Assembly (NCBI GenBank): GCA_002869615.1
Contig: PKUH01000120.1
Location: forward strand, 1-35,516
DNA from: Desulfuromonas sp.
GTDB lineage: Bacteria; Desulfobacterota; Desulfuromonadia; Desulfuromonadales; UBA2294
Length of the DNA: 35,516 bases
Direction: 5' to 3'
Position numbers and translations under genes: made by a program. Within the stretch, counting starts at the first letter, position 1; each line of letters starts with the position of its first letter. The notes beneath the pieces are model-generated. The model worked only from the letters and a program-made list of their open reading frames with translations. It was not told where the DNA came from and made no database searches. Below, in pieces: positions 2,817-18,932 of this stretch.

Positions 2817-3467
2817 TCACTTCGAGCGGCGCACACCGTTGCGTGGACAGGTCTCGGACAAGGGGCAGGCCGAACAAACCGGAACCGGGGCCTTGCAAAT
2901 CGCCCGACCGTGGTAGATCAGGGTATGACTGGTCTGGTTCCAGCGCTCTGCCGGCAGCAGCTTCATCAGGTCCAGCTCAACTTTTTCCGGCTCGGTCTGG
3001 CGGCTCCATCCGAGCCGATAGGCGATCCGTTTGACATGGGTATCAACAACCATTCCCGGTATACCAAAGGCGTTTCCCAGAACCACGTTGGCCGTTTTCC
3101 GACCGACCCCGGGCAGGGCGATCAGCTGGTCAAGGTCAGCCGGGACCGATCCGCCATATTCACTGACAAGCATCCGGGCACAGGCGATCAGATTGCGGGC
3201 CTTGTTGCGGAAAAATCCGGTACTTTTGATCAGCTCTTCAAGTTCGGTTATATTCGCAGATGCAAGCTGTTCCGGGTTGGCAAATCTCCGGAAAAGGTCG
3301 GATGTCACCACATTAACCCGCACATCAGTGCATTGGGCCGACAGAATCGTCGCAACAAGCAGTTCATACGGATTTTTGTGAACCAGCGCACATTCGGCCT
3401 CGGGATAAAGCGCTTCAAGAAAATCGAGTGTTTCCAGTGCGTTAGAACGGCCGCTCAGATAGCGCAT
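2817..3467 (-). CDS. nth: Endonuclease III (Fe-S DNA glycosylase/AP lyase)
   Basis: Base-excision repair enzyme of 216 residues that removes oxidised pyrimidines and nicks the abasic site. The helix-hairpin-helix LPGVGRKTA carries the catalytic lysine K124, and the VDTHVKR segment carries the catalytic aspartate D142. The C-terminus has the 4Fe-4S loop C191-x6-C198-x2-C201-x5-C207 exactly as in the family. Length matches E. coli Nth (211). The start at 3467 has only a weak ribosome-binding site, but the N-terminal LDFLEALYPEAECAL segment aligns with normal family starts. It is monocistronic or weakly linked to the leftward cluster ending at 3566, 98 bases upstream. Confidence 0.96.
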   Translation of the reverse strand: MRYLSGRSNALETLDFLEALYPEAECALVHKNPYELLVATILSAQCTDVRVNVVTSDLFRRFANPEQLASANITELEELIKSTGFFRNKARNLIACARMLVSEYGGSVPADLDQLIALPGVGRKTANVVLGNAFGIPGMVVDTHVKRIAYRLGWSRQTEPEKVELDLMKLLPAERWNQTSHTLIYHGRAICKAPVPVCSACPLSETCPRNGVRRSK

Positions 3468-3565
3468 AAATCACTTTTCATGAGATCAAGGTCCGGTCTG
3501 AAACCGGTAATATTTCGGCAAGATGATGGAACTTCAAAAACTTATCAACCGTTTCCACAGGGTTA

Positions 3566-4099
3566 TCAACAGGACGATAATCGTGCCTTCAGCTGGTCAG
3601 CAAAGACCCTGAAATCATCTTCACTGAAGAGGCAGAAGACGACGAGCTCGAGGGAAGATCGCTTCTGCAAAAAAGTACAGACCTCATCCAGCATGATTGC
3701 CGCCGCCCGCTCAATCGGAAAACCGAAGATTCCGGTTGAAAGTGCCGGAAAACTGATGCTCCGCAGGTTTTTCCCGGCGGCAATGTCGAGGCTGCTGCGG
3801 GTTGCTCCGGCGAGCTTGGCATCTTCACCCCCTTCACCCATACGCGGACCGACGGCGTGAATAACATATCCCGCTTTGAGGTTACCACTACCGGTCAAAA
3901 CTGCCGTCCCGACCGGAGTCCCGCCGATCCGGTCACACTCCTGCTGAATCGTTGGGCCTCCCTTGTTGCGGATTGCTCCGGCGACACCGGCGCCGAGCTG
4001 CAACTGACTGTTGGCGGCATTGACGATGGCATCGGTCGATTGCTCGGTGATATCACCCCGGATCAGCTGCAGACTCTTCCCGCGAATGGTTATCTGCAT
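3566..4099 (-). CDS. Macro-domain protein (ADP-ribose/O-acetyl-ADP-ribose binding)
   Basis: A single macro domain of 177 residues. Seen: RGDIT near residue 14, the adenine/ribose loop NAANSQL (27-33), GAGVAGAI, the VIHAVGP strand and the phosphate loop STGIFGFP. Known: such proteins bind ADP-ribose derivatives, and some deacetylate O-acetyl-ADP-ribose or remove ADP-ribose from proteins. Residue 40 is Ala where MacroD/YmdB enzymes have a catalytic Asp (GVDGAIH), so I place it with the Af1521/ALC1-like binders and hydrolases and give no ymdB symbol. ATG 4099 follows a GGGAGG sequence; a longer in-frame extension to 4231 lies inside the upstream gene and is unlikely. It starts inside the last codons of the EEP-fold gene (stop at 4108), so translation is probably coupled. 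Confidence 0.9.
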   Translation of the reverse strand: MQITIRGKSLQLIRGDITEQSTDAIVNAANSQLQLGAGVAGAIRNKGGPTIQQECDRIGGTPVGTAVLTGSGNLKAGYVIHAVGPRMGEGGEDAKLAGATRSSLDIAAGKNLRSISFPALSTGIFGFPIERAAAIMLDEVCTFLQKRSSLELVVFCLFSEDDFRVFADQLKARLSSC

Positions 4100-4107
4100 A
4101 ACCTCCC

Positions 4108-4851
4108 TCAGCTGTGAGCGACTTCCATTGGCCGTGCGGCTTTGATCGGTTCTTTTTGTCGCAGGTAAATTCTTGGATCGGCCATCCGTACCGTCAGGAT
4201 TAACGGCAGGTGCAACGCTGCCTGGCGACAACGTTTTGAGCGGATCACCTTGCTGTCGAGAATCCGGACCTCACCCTGAACATAAGCCCGATCACGATTG
4301 AATACCGGGAAGTGAGCCGGAAAGGTTCCGCCCCAGAACGACGGACGACCGGCACCCTGCAACATGAACTTGAGCGTCAGATTGCCGGCGCCGATCCAGT
4401 TGTCGGCAAAATCACCGAGCAGCAGAACCGGACAACAGATGTCCCGGCTGCTCAGCAGCTCCGGTCCGAGCAGGGTCTTGATCTGCTCGCGGCGTTCGGC
4501 CGCCCTGGTCGTCAGCCGGACATTAAAGATATGGATTTTCTGCCCGTCCTTGTCGAGATCGGCCTTTTGGCAGACGCCATCTTTACCGAGACTGTATTCG
4601 CGGACACCACTCAGGGGGTAGTAAGAAAGAAAGGCATTGGCATCCTCCCGGGAATGGCCATAACTTCTCATCCCGAGCTTTTCGGCCAGCAGGTTGAGAT
4701 GATCCACATCCCGGGATGCATTGACATGCTGCAGGGCAACGATGTCGGGTGCCTGGTCTTCAATAATATCGGCAATCCGTTGCGGATCACAGACACCATC
4801 GTTACCGCGGCAACCATTGATGTTGTAGGTCATTAGCCGGATGCTGATCAT
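4108..4851 (-). CDS. Endonuclease/exonuclease/phosphatase-fold protein with degenerate active site
   Basis: A 247-residue protein of the EEP superfamily, cytoplasmic (no signal peptide). Framework motifs are clear: MTYNINGC (N10), DIVALQ (36-41), the LSYYPL strand, LLLGDF (D147) and a terminal HLPL. Several catalytic positions are changed: the metal-binding Glu of the usual LQE is H42, the Asn of GDFN is A149, the usual THL histidine is R112 and the Asp of SDH is L213. The fold is confident, but nuclease or phosphatase activity is doubtful. It lies 50 bases downstream of the cyclophilin gene and overlaps the macro-domain start, so it is the middle gene of a likely three-gene tail of the gyr-gpsA run. 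Confidence 0.82.
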   Translation of the reverse strand: MISIRLMTYNINGCRGNDGVCDPQRIADIIEDQAPDIVALQHVNASRDVDHLNLLAEKLGMRSYGHSREDANAFLSYYPLSGVREYSLGKDGVCQKADLDKDGQKIHIFNVRLTTRAAERREQIKTLLGPELLSSRDICCPVLLLGDFADNWIGAGNLTLKFMLQGAGRPSFWGGTFPAHFPVFNRDRAYVQGEVRILDSKVIRSKRCRQAALHLPLILTVRMADPRIYLRQKEPIKAARPMEVAHS

Positions 4852-4901: not shown

Positions 4902-5474
4902 TTATTCAGCGACGCGCTTGACTGAAAGGATCTCGACCGTGTGAATCGGCAGACTGGCGAATGGGCCGACACCTTTCTTGATAGGTGTTTCGGCGATCTT
5001 GTCAACCACTTCCATCCCGGAGGTCACTCTACCGAAAACGGCATAACCATAGCCGCGGGCGTCAGGACTGCGGTAATTGAGAAAATCGTTGTCGACCAGA
5101 TTGATGAAAAACTGGCTGCTTGCCGAATCAACAACACTGGTGCGGGCCATGGCGATCGTTCCGCGATCGTTTTTGAGTCCGTTGTCAGCTTCATTCTTGA
5201 TCGGCGGAAAACCGTTCTTCATTTTTTTATTGGTATCAAAACCGCCACCCTGAATCATGAACCCCTTGATCACGCGGTGGAAGATCGTGCCGCTATAGAA
5301 ATCGGAATCGACATATTTGAGAAAATTGGCGACCGTGATCGGCGCCTTTTTATCATCGAGCTCCAACCGGATCGTGCCAAGATTGGTTTCCATATCAACC
5401 TCAACCGCAGCAAAGACCGGGGCAGTTACAAACAGTACGGCCAGCATGGTCATGATAAGTGTTTTACGCATCAT
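4902..5474 (-). CDS. Periplasmic cyclophilin-type peptidyl-prolyl cis-trans isomerase
   Basis: Folding catalyst of 190 residues that isomerises Xaa-Pro bonds. A signal peptide (basic MMRK, hydrophobic core, cleavage near VFA-AVEV about residue 22) points to export to the periplasm. The cyclophilin core has [13 protein letters not shown] with the catalytic Arg (R67), the MAR segment, SQFFINL and YAVFGRV. The cyclosporin-contact Trp of eukaryotic forms is absent, as is usual in bacterial periplasmic forms. AAAGGAG precedes the tandem ATGs at 5474 and 5471, either of which could start. It sits 13 bases after gpsA and is probably co-transcribed. Confidence 0.93.
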
Positions 5475-5486
5475 TTTTCTCCTTTA

Positions 5487-6503
5487 TCAGGCTCCTTCGG
5501 GCTTCAGTTGCCGCTCCATCAGAGCGTTGACTGCCACCCGGGCTTCTTTTTCATTGTACAAAATTTCGTACATCTGTTCGATTAACGGCGCCTCAACTCC
5601 CAGTTTATTGGCCAGCTGGTATGCCGACAAGGTGGTCTTGACCCCTTCGGCAACCATATTCATTTCATTGAGAATCTCTGCAAGCGTTCGCCCCTGTCCA
5701 AGTTCAAAACCGACACTACGGTTACGCGACAGGTCACCGGTGCAGGTCAGAACCAGATCGCCCATTCCGGCCAGCCCGGCAAAGGTCATCGGATCGGCCC
5801 CCATGGCAACCCCGATCCGGGTAATCTCGGCGAGCCCCCGGGTGATCAGTGCTGCCCGGGTGTTGTAACCATAACCGAGTCCATCGGAGATCCCGGCGGC
5901 CAGAGCAATCACATTTTTGAGCGCACCGCCAAGCTCCACCCCGATCGCATCCCGGTTGGTGTATACACGAAAAACATCGGTACTGAAAACGGCCTGGACC
6001 TCGGCCGCTATCGTATCATCGTTAGCCGCGACAGCGACCGCTGTCGGCATTTTCTGGACAACCTCCCTGGCAAATGAGGGGCCAGACAGATAGGCCGTCC
6101 GCTTTTTAATCGGTTGCGGTAAAAGCTCGGCAAAAATTTCCGACATCGGCAGCAGGGTATCGTTTTCGATCCCCTTCGAGGCCGAGACAATAATAACCTG
6201 ATCATCGAAACAGTTCACAACCTTCTCGAGCAACCGCCGCAAGACCTGGGAAGGGGGAACAAAAAGAACCAGATCCTTATTACTGACCGCCGCTTTGATG
6301 TCGGTCGTAAAGGTCAGATTGTCCGAAAGCGTGAAGCCGGGGAGGTAAAGATCATTTTCCCGACTCGTCTGCATGCGCGCCACAAGATCTTCCTCGTAGG
6401 CCCATAGCGTCACCGGATACCCCTTTTCGGCGAGAAGGTTGGCCAGCGTTGTTCCCCAGCTTCCGGCCCCGATGACACCAATATTTTTGACCATTTTTTT
6501 CAT
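5487..6503 (-). CDS. gpsA: Glycerol-3-phosphate dehydrogenase [NAD(P)+]
   Basis: Reduces dihydroxyacetone phosphate to sn-glycerol 3-phosphate, the backbone precursor of phospholipids; cytoplasmic, 338 residues. Seen: an N-terminal Rossmann motif VIGAGSWGT (10-18), the SGPSFAREV segment, the catalytic lysine in ELGGALKNVIALAAG, and the C-terminal GLAGMGDLVLTCTGDLSRNRSVG signature. Length equals the family norm. The ATG at 6503 overlaps the TPR gene stop by one base (TAATG), indicating translational coupling; an in-frame ATG at 6494 is an alternative start. The order gyrA-TPR-gpsA is what I recall for Geobacter. Confidence 0.97.
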   Translation of the reverse strand: MKKMVKNIGVIGAGSWGTTLANLLAEKGYPVTLWAYEEDLVARMQTSRENDLYLPGFTLSDNLTFTTDIKAAVSNKDLVLFVPPSQVLRRLLEKVVNCFDDQVIIVSASKGIENDTLLPMSEIFAELLPQPIKKRTAYLSGPSFAREVVQKMPTAVAVAANDDTIAAEVQAVFSTDVFRVYTNRDAIGVELGGALKNVIALAAGISDGLGYGYNTRAALITRGLAEITRIGVAMGADPMTFAGLAGMGDLVLTCTGDLSRNRSVGFELGQGRTLAEILNEMNMVAEGVKTTLSAYQLANKLGVEAPLIEQMYEILYNEKEARVAVNALMERQLKPEGA

Positions 6504-14852: not shown

Positions 14853-16169
14853 TTATTTTAATTGCATATCATTTTCGAGCTGTTTATCTATTTTTTTTAT
14901 GGCGTGGATAATTGTTGAGTGATCCTTGCCGCCAAACTGTTCTCCAATATCCGGATAGGATAGAGGTGTCAGTTGTCGCGTCAGATACATTGCAATCTGT
15001 CTTGCCATAACCAGAGCTTTATGCCGTTTGGCTGACTTTAAATCCGAATTTTTAATTCCGAAATGCGCTGCAACAGCTTTTTGTATCTGTTCAGTCGATA
15101 TTTTTCTGTTTTTTTCTACGAGTATATCTTTCAGTATATCTTTCGCCATTTCAAGAGATATAGAAGTAGATGTCAGGCTGGCATAAGCCCCTATTCTTAC
15201 CAGATATCCCTCAAGATCACGGACATTATTACTGGCCGAATTAGCCAGGAAAAGAGCAACATCTTCCGGCAAGTCAATCCCGTTATTTTCCGCCTTTACT
15301 TTTAATATGGCCTGTTTTGTTTCTACATCCGGAGCTTGAATATCGGCAATCAATCCCCATTCAAAACGGGAACGTAATCTCTCTTCCAGTCCCGGTATTT
15401 CCTTTGGAAATTTGTCCGATGTAACAACGATCTGTTTATGCGACTCATATAAAGAGTTAAATGTATGAAAAAATTCTTCCTGGGTTCTTTCTTTACCGGC
15501 GATAAATTGAATATCATCAATCATCAGAACATCCATGGTTCTGAATTTATTCCTGAACTCATCCATCTTGTTATAGCGTAGAGAATTGATCAGTTCATTC
15601 ATAAATTTTTCGGATGTGTAATAACAGATTGACATCTGCGGATCATTTTTAAGAATTTCATTGCCGATAGCATTAACCAGGTGTGTTTTACCAAGTCCGA
15701 CACCACCGTATACAAAAAGAGGGTTGTAAGTCGTCGCCGGATTATTGGCAACAGCCATTGCAGCGGCATAAGCAAACTGGTTGGATGAACCGGTCACAAA
15801 TTCATCGAAGGTGTATTTGGGATTGATGTTGATTGACTGATTTCTATTTAACGGCGGGGAGAACTTTTTAGCCGGCACCGGTTGTTCTTCTTTATTACTA
15901 TTTTTAATATTGTTTTCAGATGAATTGGCTGAAATATTAAATTCGAGATTATATTCTACCGAGCCGATTGTTGATAATGTTTCCCTGATCATCTGAAAGT
16001 AGTTTTCCCTGATCCAGTCGAGAAAAAATCGATTGGGAACCTGAAGTTTCACCGTATCGGCTTTTATGTCGACGAGTTCTATCGGTTTGATCCATGTCGC
16101 AAAATGTTGCGGGTTCAAAGATAGTTCAAGTTTATCGAGAGTTTTATTCCAGATTTGTTCAGTTGTCAT
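14853..16169 (-). CDS. dnaA: Chromosomal replication initiator protein DnaA
   Basis: AAA+ initiator of 438 residues that binds DnaA boxes and melts the origin. Domain I (about 1-75) has the WIKPIEL segment used for helicase/regulator contacts. A short Asn/Ser-rich linker follows, then domain III with Walker A GGVGLGKTHL (155-164), Walker B VLMIDDIQF with D218/D219 and the sensor/Arg-finger segment ERLRSRFEWGL. Domain IV ends with the DNA-binding signature FGGKDHSTIIHAIKKID. Length is typical. Coding sequence is A/T-rich. It is flanked by the two AT-rich intergenic stretches with DnaA boxes, so autoregulation is likely. Confidence 0.98.
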   Translation of the reverse strand: MTTEQIWNKTLDKLELSLNPQHFATWIKPIELVDIKADTVKLQVPNRFFLDWIRENYFQMIRETLSTIGSVEYNLEFNISANSSENNIKNSNKEEQPVPAKKFSPPLNRNQSININPKYTFDEFVTGSSNQFAYAAAMAVANNPATTYNPLFVYGGVGLGKTHLVNAIGNEILKNDPQMSICYYTSEKFMNELINSLRYNKMDEFRNKFRTMDVLMIDDIQFIAGKERTQEEFFHTFNSLYESHKQIVVTSDKFPKEIPGLEERLRSRFEWGLIADIQAPDVETKQAILKVKAENNGIDLPEDVALFLANSASNNVRDLEGYLVRIGAYASLTSTSISLEMAKDILKDILVEKNRKISTEQIQKAVAAHFGIKNSDLKSAKRHKALVMARQIAMYLTRQLTPLSYPDIGEQFGGKDHSTIIHAIKKIDKQLENDMQLK

Positions 16170-16231
16170 TATTCGGATCTTTGTGAAACATTACCAGAAT
16201 TTTACCGAAAAGAATGAGTAGATACAAATAG

Positions 16232-16240
16232 TTATCCACA
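16232..16240 (+). promoter_or_regulatory. DnaA box TTATCCACA
   Basis: Exact consensus DnaA box, 62 bases upstream of the dnaA start codon and 14 bases from a second box in opposite orientation. Confidence 0.85.
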
Positions 16241-16254
16241 TGTTTTTTAACAGT

Positions 16255-16263
16255 TGTGGATAA
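16255..16263 (-). promoter_or_regulatory. DnaA box (TGTGGATAA on plus strand)
   Basis: Exact reverse consensus DnaA box, followed at once by an A/T-only tract. It forms a convergent pair with the box at 16232. Confidence 0.85.
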
Positions 16264-16433
16264 TTATTTTTTTTTGCTTTAGAGTCAGTATTTGCCGACC
16301 TCTTTGCCTTATCAGATAACACCAAAAATAAGCTTATCGACGCTAGCAGAGGCGACTCTTTTTTGCAAGATTTTTTTCATTTGCGCAAGAGTCCCTTTTC
16401 CCGGAAAAATAGTTAGTAAACTCCTTAATTTTC

Positions 16434-16462
16434 TTGACAGTTTTTTTTAAATATGCTTAGTA
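16434..16462 (+). promoter_or_regulatory. Sigma-70 promoter of the rpmH-rnpA run
   Basis: A perfect -35 TTGACA (16434-16439) is followed after 17 bases by TTAGTA (16457-16462). TG one base upstream of that hexamer makes it an extended -10. Transcription would begin near 16469, leaving about 75 bases of leader before rpmH. Confidence 0.65.
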
Positions 16463-16542
16463 GTGCTCTTTGGTTCAAAGATGAAAATAAACTATATGGA
16501 ACAGGCTAATCTTGTTTTTGTATTAAGAAGGAGATTTAAATT

Positions 16543-16692
16543 ATGAAAAGAACTTATCAACCGAGCCGGGTCAGTCGTAAACGGACGCACGGCTTCCGCA
16601 AGAGAATGCAATCAAAAAACGGGCGCTCCCTCATCAAAAGGCGTCGGGCGCGTGGCCGCAAGCGGTTGGCAGCTACAACACCGATCAAGTAA
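16543..16692 (+). CDS. rpmH: Large ribosomal subunit protein bL34
   Basis: A 49-residue, extremely basic protein beginning [22 protein letters not shown] with the [10 protein letters not shown] tail typical of bL34, a late-assembly protein of the 50S subunit. AAGAAGGAG ends 8 bases before the ATG. It is first in the rightward run and just upstream of rnpA, the usual arrangement. Confidence 0.98.
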
Positions 16693-16710
16693 ATTGGGAG
16701 CCGGTTAACA

Positions 16711-17064
16711 TTGTCTCTTAGCAGACGACATACCTTTCCGGCAAAAAAGAGAATAAAGAGACGGCACGATTTTATTACTGTAAAGAACCGGGGCTTTCGC
16801 TTGCGTACGCCCCATTTTTATGTCTACGTTCTTGACAATCGGAATGAAACATCACGGCTCGGGGTTACGGTATCGCGGCGCGTTGGTAACGCCGTTGTTC
16901 GGAATCGGGTCAAACGCTTATTGCGTGAATACTTTCGTCTGAATTCAATAAGCTCTGCCGACCACCTGGATATATCGATCATTGCACGCCCCGGTGCCGG
17001 TCAGCTCAAACTGTCCGATGTTGTTGACGAAATGACGGTATTACAAAACCTTGATCAGGATTGA
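16711..17064 (+). CDS. rnpA: Ribonuclease P protein component
   Basis: Basic protein of 117 residues that binds the RNase P RNA and helps recognise the 5' leader of pre-tRNA. Seen: [13 protein letters not shown], then [27 protein letters not shown] with the conserved RNR helix that contacts the RNA. It starts at TTG 16711, with GGGAG (16696-16700) 10 bases upstream and 18 bases after the rpmH stop; a TTG start would keep expression moderate. It is followed with at most a few bases of spacing by yidD. Confidence 0.95.
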
Positions 17065-17072
17065 GTCACCTT

Positions 17073-17285
17073 ATGGTAAAACAAATTGTCATTTCTGTGA
17101 TCGTTTTATATCAAAGGTTTATTTCACCTCTGAAGGGGCCATCCTGCCGGTTTTATCCATCTTGTTCTTCCTATACACGACAATCTATCGAAAAGCACGG
17201 CTTGGGCCGTGGCCTGTTGTTGGCTGCTTTTCGCTTATGCAAATGTCATCCATTTCACCCGGGTGGTTTTGATCCGGTTAAATAA
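17073..17285 (+). CDS. yidD: Membrane protein insertion efficiency factor YidD
   Basis: A small membrane-associated protein of 70 residues. Seen: an amphipathic hydrophobic start ([19 protein letters not shown]), the three-cysteine signature [13 protein letters not shown], and [12 protein letters not shown]. The family assists insertion of proteins by YidC. ATG 17073 lies 12 bases after AGGA; an in-frame TTG at 17061 overlapping the rnpA stop is a possible alternative. It sits between rnpA and yidC as in most Proteobacteria. Confidence 0.93.
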
Positions 17286-17321
17286 GTCCTCTTTCCGTTC
17301 AGTTTCGGAGTTTTTTAAGTT

Positions 17322-18932
17322 ATGGAAAATAATAACAAAAATACATTTATCGCTATCGGTTTGATGCTGCTGGTCTGGGTTGTCTTTACCGTAGTTTTTC
17401 CCCCGACCCAGGAACCATCAGTTGAACAACCGCCTGCTGATGAAGCTACTCGGACCGAGGTGGTTGCTTCTTCATCTTCATCTCCGGCGCAGGACGTTGC
17501 TTCAATACCGACTATTATCCCGGTCGTATCGACCGAAGAGAAAGAGTTGTTAATAAAGACCGATCTCTACAGTGCTGTTTTGACCAACATCGGTGCACGG
17601 GTAAAATTACTGGAACTGAATGATTATCATGTTGAAAATGATCCTGATTCCGATCTGGTACGGATTATCGACGTTTCAATGCCGCATCAGGCTTCTCTCC
17701 GTCTGGCCGGTGTAAATGGGCTCCTGCTCTCTCCGGAAGCGCCTTATTCGCTGCCAGAAGAAAAAGAGATCGTTCTTTCTTCCGATCAGGAAAAGTCCAT
17801 TACTTTAAGCACCCGGACCAGCGATGGACTTTTGATCGAAAAAGTAATGACCTTCCGCGGCAACAGTTATGCCGTAGATGTTGTTATCCGGGTCAGTAAT
17901 CCGGGCCAGGTAGCGACCAGGGGTGGCCTCGAGTTTTCCCTGGTACAGGTCTTTGATGACTCGGCCAAACCGGACCGACTCTCTTTTGTCGGCGGTGCGG
18001 CTCTGGTGAACGATGAGGTGCAGACCGCTTCTCTTGATGATCTTGCCGAAGAATCAGTTTCTTACGGCAAAGCTACGGTCTGGACCGCCTACGAAGACAA
18101 GTATTTCATGTCGGCTCTGGTGCCGCTTGAAAATGCTCTTGAAAAAGTCCGGATTCAGCGTCAGGATGAGCGGGTCGAGAATATCATCAGCCTTCCCGGT
18201 ACCAGCCTGTCTCCCGGATCAAGTACCACTCACACCTTTATGGCTTATTTCGGTCCCCGTGACATGAAGGTTCTCGAGCAGGTCAATCATCAACTTTCCA
18301 AGGCAATTGATTTCGGATTTTTCTCCATTATTTCTGATCCTTTGCTCTGGTTTCTGAATTTTATCAATACTTACGTTCATAATTACGGCATCGCGATTAT
18401 TCTTTTGACGGTTCTGATCAAGACCTTGTTCTGGCCACTGACTCACAAAAGCTACGCTTCAATGAAAGCGATGCAGAAATTGCAACCAGAGATTGCAAAG
18501 ATTCGTGAACGCTTCAAGAATGATCGGACCCGACAGGGTCAGGAAACAATGGAGATGTACAAGAAGCATCGGGTTAATCCGATGAGCGGTTGCCTGCCGA
18601 TGCTTATTCAGATCCCCGTCTTTTTCGCCCTTTACCGGGTGTTGTATGAAGCAATCGAACTGCGGCACGCCGACTTTGCGTTCTGGCTAACCGATCTGTC
18701 TGCCAAAGATCCCTACTATATTACCCCGGTCGTTATGGGCGTAACCATGTTCATTCAACAGAGAATGACTCCCAGTACAATGGATCCGACCCAGCAGAAG
18801 ATCTTTCTGGCGATGCCGGTTGTTTTTACAGCCCTCTTCCTTAACTTTCCGTCGGGGCTTGTCATTTACTGGTTGATCAACAATCTTCTGACCATTGCCC
18901 AGCAGTACTACATCCATAAGAAATTTTCCTGA
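17322..18932 (+). CDS. yidC: Membrane protein insertase YidC
   Basis: Inner-membrane insertase of 536 residues acting alone or with SecYEG; one of its classic clients is the Fo c-subunit of ATP synthase. Seen: N-terminal TM1 (about 7-24), a Pro/Ser/Thr-rich linker, a large periplasmic beta-sandwich domain typical of Gram-negative forms, then the conserved five-helix core beginning near residue 330 with GIAIILLTVLIKTLFWPLT, the charged hairpin QPEIAKIRERFKNDR, MSGCLPMLIQIPVFFALYRVL and the final FPSGLVIYWLINNLLTIAQQ. Length is typical. A GGAG lies 11 bases before the start. No jag/khpB gene follows, unlike in many relatives. Confidence 0.97.
   Translation: MENNNKNTFIAIGLMLLVWVVFTVVFPPTQEPSVEQPPADEATRTEVVASSSSSPAQDVASIPTIIPVVSTEEKELLIKTDLYSAVLTNIGARVKLLELNDYHVENDPDSDLVRIIDVSMPHQASLRLAGVNGLLLSPEAPYSLPEEKEIVLSSDQEKSITLSTRTSDGLLIEKVMTFRGNSYAVDVVIRVSNPGQVATRGGLEFSLVQVFDDSAKPDRLSFVGGAALVNDEVQTASLDDLAEESVSYGKATVWTAYEDKYFMSALVPLENALEKVRIQRQDERVENIISLPGTSLSPGSSTTHTFMAYFGPRDMKVLEQVNHQLSKAIDFGFFSIISDPLLWFLNFINTYVHNYGIAIILLTVLIKTLFWPLTHKSYASMKAMQKLQPEIAKIRERFKNDRTRQGQETMEMYKKHRVNPMSGCLPMLIQIPVFFALYRVLYEAIELRHADFAFWLTDLSAKDPYYITPVVMGVTMFIQQRMTPSTMDPTQQKIFLAMPVVFTALFLNFPSGLVIYWLINNLLTIAQQYYIHKKFS

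Follow-up and report, generated by a model that had tools for sequence, protein, structure and literature searches.

The EEP superfamily includes ExoIII/APE1, DNase I, TDP2 and the LINE-1 endonuclease (EN), and mutagenesis of APE1 has revealed that loss of the catalytic Asn alone already has severe effects. Both this fold and pseudoenzymes are known, and an EEP protein that has been stripped of its catalytic set throughout an order forms a natural case, posing the question of what role the fold plays once cutting is impossible. In the open-access literature searched, no printed account of an inactive or pseudo EEP protein of this kind was found. The protein described here is tractable in this respect, being encoded by one gene at a fixed locus next to gpsA and, usually, nth. 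Annotated by its match to the Pfam family PF03372 only, it would be taken for a nuclease or phosphatase, but its residues argue otherwise.

The protein is encoded on a stretch of 35,516 nucleotides (the window) from Desulfuromonas sp. (GTDB lineage Desulfobacterota; Desulfuromonadia; Desulfuromonadales; UBA2294), i.e., positions 1-35,516 of the forward strand of contig PKUH01000120.1 (GCA_002869615.1). The following features are relevant:

2817..3467, minus strand: nth, endonuclease III (named by reading)
3541..3571, minus strand: degenerate DnaA-box-like cluster (TGTTGATAA, TGTGGAAAC, GTTGATAAG), overlapping the macro stop codon
3566..4099, minus strand: macro-domain gene (PF01661, E-value 7.6e-37 for the longer, TTG-started open reading frame), with its likely ATG at 4099
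4108..4851, minus strand: candidate pseudo-EEP gene, an open reading frame of 247 amino acids from ATG to TGA with a PF03372 match
4902..5474, minus strand: ppi, peptidyl-prolyl isomerase (named by reading)
5487..6503, minus strand: gpsA, glycerol-3-phosphate dehydrogenase (named by reading)

The match of the protein to Exo_endo_phos (PF03372; E-value 4.1e-11) has a score of 43.5 bits, which exceeds the curated cut-off of 24.5, and a profile search retrieved the same domain in 52 of 53 family members. The source genome contains a single match to this protein, and one further PF03372 protein, at C73, that reads with GDFN and SDH. A search of viral contigs yielded no relative of the protein. The superfamily is characterised by a four-layer alpha/beta sandwich; an AlphaFold2 model obtained from only two input sequences had a mean pLDDT of 37.7, too low for use.

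For comparison, 99 of the 126 orthologue loci identified in the order were taken, chosen to cover the order-wide matches and not at random; removal of four with odd or cut frames left an alignment of 95 rows. These were set against 41 intact relatives: 11 weaker matches within the order (“paralogues”) and, mostly from the top of the match listings, 16 from the class and 14 from the phylum. Outside the order, the profile finds 39 of the 141 genomes of the class at 1e-20 (the best hit being at 1.5e-39), and in a sample of 395 genomes of the phylum 34 match at 1e-25 (9 within the order and 25 outside, best outside 2.1e-45); a catalytically broken relative may exist elsewhere, among the 34 uninspected or the weaker matches. 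The intact relatives, which we presume to be similar to YbhP of E. coli, are at most 37% identical to the window protein (L101). All 41 possess N10, E42, H112, D147 and N149, and 40 have D187, D213 and H214 in the alignment; the remaining one (L104) has them, including SDH, in its full sequence. Three of the 11 paralogues (L102, L104, and L108) are situated within open frames of 805-849 amino acids (849 for L102 and 812 for L108). In L104 (3-2342) the intact paralogue forms the C-terminal part of the long open frame, of which 779 amino acids fall within the stretch; its N-terminal part, by reading of the sequence, is like an alkaline-phosphatase/phosphodiesterase-type domain.

The window protein indeed possesses the letters reported in the original prediction, i.e., LQH (H42), VRL (V111 and R112), GDFA (A149) and ALH (L213), instead of the pattern LQE, THL, GDFN and SDH. 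The claim that at least four catalytic or metal-binding positions are replaced is borne out by the comparison, where H42, R112, A149 and L213 stand opposite E, H, N and D in the 41 intact relatives, although the Thr of THL is found in only 31 of these. N10, D147 and the terminal His (H214) were said to be kept; all are present in the window protein, but N10 is not a constant of the family (61 of 99 orthologues, 57 of the 95 aligned). The Asp belonging to the LD/ID motif (D187) was overlooked at the time; it occurs in the window protein and in 91 of the 95 orthologues.

Alignment with orthologues from the same order, as had been proposed, demonstrated that the substitutions are conserved as losses order-wide. 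The metal-ligand Glu of LQE is retained in only 26 of 95 aligned orthologues (29 of 99) vs. 41 of 41 intact relatives; with Asp in another 24, an acid occurs at position 42 in 50 of 95. H112 occurs in two of the 99 orthologues. The Asp of GDFN is present in all (95 of 95; 99 of 99), whereas its Asn (N149) is found in none of the 95 or 99 orthologues and in all intact relatives, and of the SDH motif the Asp (D213) is likewise absent from all orthologues while the His is retained in 91 of 95 (95 of 99). The sites 42, 112 and 213 have drifted to 10, 12 and 10 residue types, respectively, and no new conserved acidic set that might supply replacement ligands stands out. Retained in common with the intact relatives are D36, Q41, Q123, G146, D147, P178, P182, D187, H214 and P216, and ten columns are invariant among 53 aligned members. 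In four proteins (L083, L084, L086, and L091) D187 and H214 are both missing; it is the same four that lack each of them, as would be expected for a coupled pair. Three of the four (L083, L084, and L091) fall in one clade of the tree and L086 is placed separately; the joint loss thus arose in at least two places, a further step in the decay of the old site.

The orthologues also possess features of their own. R186 is found in 92 of 95 orthologues but in none of the 41 intact relatives, and R188 and G193 occur in 91 and 87 orthologues vs. seven intact relatives each. Beyond H214 the window protein has a C-terminal tail of 33 residues; this tail comprises 29-47 residues (median 31) in the 95 orthologues, in contrast to 9-23 residues after the SDH His in 39 of the 41 intact relatives, the two exceptions having 32 and 52. 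Within it D225, R227 and L230 are held by 81, 82 and 73 of the 95 orthologues, and 90 have a Gly in the final alignment column, which is the genuine last residue in 85; the last residue of the window protein is Ser. C94, D98, H107, N110 and Y190 (the latter present in 95 of 95) were considered as inventions of the family and rejected, as with the 14 phylum relatives added some intact relatives proved to have them.

The gene is not an oddity of a single genome. At an E-value of 0.001, a search across the order found a match in 128 of 136 genomes, including 83 of the 84 more complete ones (≥90% complete, ≤5% contaminated), and a profile of 53 members detected an orthologue in 126 of 136 at 2.2e-50 or better. 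Two genomes, G048 (1.9e-32) and G081 (1.8e-35), have weaker profile matches only; both are just 81% complete and, therefore, the figure of 83 of 84 is valid for orthologues as well. The other eight gave no match to this profile at 1e-20. When nth was sought in these ten genomes, G019 and G032 had a close nth (62 and 54%) at a contig end, so that the place of the EEP gene falls off the contig; no nth match was found in G081, and the best match in the remaining seven was only 29-42%, which indicates that the locus is probably missing from the assembly. The gene may be truly absent from some, notably G120 (90% complete) and G102 (42%). In a maximum-likelihood tree, a branch supported at 100/100 separated the whole set of 95 orthologues from 27 intact rows, although the tool warned of long branches and unsettled bootstrap values; in a quick tree with all 41 intact relatives, rooted at the midpoint, the orthologues also grouped together (support 0.73). 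Among the 60 most similar of 133 pairs (72-99% identity), dN/dS was 0.031-0.221 for 58 pairs and, owing to saturation, undefined for the other two, indicating that the gene is maintained. It thus represents a conserved orthologous group under selection with its catalytic residues lost, as expected for a pseudoenzyme.

The position of the locus, close to the replication origin, is the same in almost all genomes examined of the order. Upstream, gpsA is present in 98 of 99 loci (only 101 nt are in view in the exception), and the nearest recognised gene is ppi in 81 of 98 and gpsA in 17 of 98, with a median gap of 51 nt. On the downstream side, 89 of the 99 loci have nth in the same orientation; of the other ten, six end within 160 nt and four (L031, L076, L077, and L095) lack nth over at least 1.4 kb. 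Eight genomes of the sister order possess gpsA, in four of them at 10.6-12.1 kb of a contig, but a range of 1.5 kb around it contained none of the other neighbours from the window; their best nth match (36-41% identity) lies elsewhere. The arrangement of the EEP gene with nth, therefore, marks the source order. The translational link with the macro gene that had been proposed holds for the source genome, where the likely macro ATG lies 8 nt past the EEP stop codon (4110-4108) with a Shine-Dalgarno-like GGGAGG (4107-4102) in between, but it is not family-wide: only two of the 99 loci, both of the source genus, have a macro gene here, and the macro protein was consequently discarded as a key to the EEP family.

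In the cluster at 3541..3571 only TGTTGATAA differs from the consensus by no more than one mismatch; the cluster resembles one that lies after the EEP gene in relatives. A scan for DnaA-box-like 9-mers (TTATCCACA, at most one mismatch) of the 159-nt stretches following the EEP stop codon, with the own genus omitted, gave 125 hits in 92 stretches, with at least one in 73 and none in 19, whereas 200 single-base shuffles gave a mean of 2.8 and a maximum of 8 hits; ahead of the EEP start such a 9-mer occurs in 10 of 98 stretches. The cluster is perhaps a site of DnaA titration or regulation, about 12 kb from dnaA. In 11 of the 99 loci (L068, L070, L073, L078, L079, L082, L083, L084, L085, L086, and L091) the last two codons of the EEP gene and its stop codon, TGT GGA TAA, themselves form an exact DnaA-box-like 9-mer. 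Further exact sites occur at 16232 and 16255, within a region (16169-17322) upstream of a dnaA-like open reading frame (14853..16169) that is the probable oriC.

The gene has lost most of its residues for cutting and yet has been kept in place in almost all of an order, a combination that makes it probable that the protein binds instead of cuts. The original prediction left the choice between a pseudo-enzyme and a new specificity class. As judged from the residues, the former is favoured, because the losses are conserved without a new acidic set and positions 42, 112 and 213 have drifted, while D147, D187, H214, R186 and R188 are held. An active enzyme with altered chemistry would use D147, D187 and H214 as an acid/base core and R186 and R188 in place of the metal, resulting in a metal-independent phosphodiesterase or phosphatase with a new specificity. 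The near-complete retention of this core, the gain of R186 beside D187 and the strong purifying selection are consistent with it; however, no orthologue has the GDFN Asn or the SDH Asp, and loss of this Asn alone is so detrimental to APE1 that an active enzyme is disfavoured. Together with the ten residue types at position 42 and the four members devoid of D187 and H214, this leads us to consider it unlikely. That the gene is simply decaying and has no function would fit with the loss of the catalytic residues, but the low dN/dS ratios and the distribution rule this out for practical purposes, as do the invariant columns; in addition, no internal stop was noted among the orthologue matches listed.

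The gene order raises two further explanations. The protein might be a partner of endonuclease III that detects abasic or nicked DNA through its non-cutting EEP fold and assists Nth. The frequent presence of nth downstream, with six of the ten exceptions ending too early in view, and the lack of ppi and nth beside gpsA in the eight sister-order genomes are in line with this, but the EEP gene occurs without nth in four loci, and the gap to nth often amounts to tens to >100 nt, commonly with DnaA-box-like sites. This wide gap and the intervening macro gene in the source genus suggest that the coupling is loose, and we regard such a partnership as quite unlikely. Alternatively, the protein may bind a phospholipid-related compound and act with GpsA or in membrane lipid synthesis, considering the almost universal gpsA upstream, in some cases as the nearest recognised gene, and an intact relative from the class (L138) that is located between VTT/DedA-like and phospholipase-D-like open reading frames (named by reading). 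However, the context of the intact relatives comes from only two loci (L104 and L138), and the sister-order genomes have gpsA without the neighbours of the EEP gene, making this explanation very unlikely. Highly speculative, and to be given just as little weight, is a scenario in which a non-cutting EEP reader of damaged or origin-proximal DNA was set beside nth in the ancestor of the order, with the Arg pair replacing the metal, and passes abasic or nicked sites on to Nth or links repair to initiation via the DnaA-box-like cluster.

The most plausible explanation is, therefore, that the protein is an EEP-fold pseudoenzyme belonging to the core of the order, which probably serves to bind a ligand that bears a phosphate, or else a partner, without metal-dependent hydrolysis. 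With the metal-ligand Glu, the His of HxL, the Asn of GDFN and the Asp of SDH lost, hydrolysis would not be expected to take place. The core of D147, D187 and H214, with R186 and R188 flanking D187, may hold a ligand or protein partner without a metal; candidate ligands would be a nucleic acid, a nucleotide or a phospholipid head group. One might guess that R186 and R188 line a pocket, and the longer C-terminal tail could provide an additional contact. Gene order points to GpsA, an enzyme of phospholipid synthesis, and to Nth, which acts in base excision repair, as the first candidate partners, but the order of genes close to an origin is frequently conserved on other grounds, which counts against them. 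The partial retention of the catalytic core and the acid at position 42 in just over half of the aligned orthologues argue against a pseudoenzyme, and the members lacking both D187 and H214 argue against an indispensable retained core.

Among known systems, the family profile matches the solved structure of a 5'-tyrosyl-DNA phosphodiesterase (4fva; 2.5e-06) and the LINE-1 endonuclease (0.001). The likeness to exodeoxyribonuclease III (TIGR00633) is weak: 6 of 53 members match at 0.01 (best 0.00028), and the window protein, with 17.4 bits, falls below the equivalog cut-off of 99.05 bits and does not have the exodeoxyribonuclease III catalytic set. With their intact EEP relatives the orthologues share Q41, R120, Q123, D147, D187, H214 and P216, but the catalytic motifs are kept by the 41 intact proteins. 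Compared to the EEP superfamily at large, the orthologues have lost the catalytic Glu, the His of HxL, the Asn of GDFN and the Asp of SDH and have R186 and R188 and a longer tail instead, whereas D147, D187 and H214 are retained in most.
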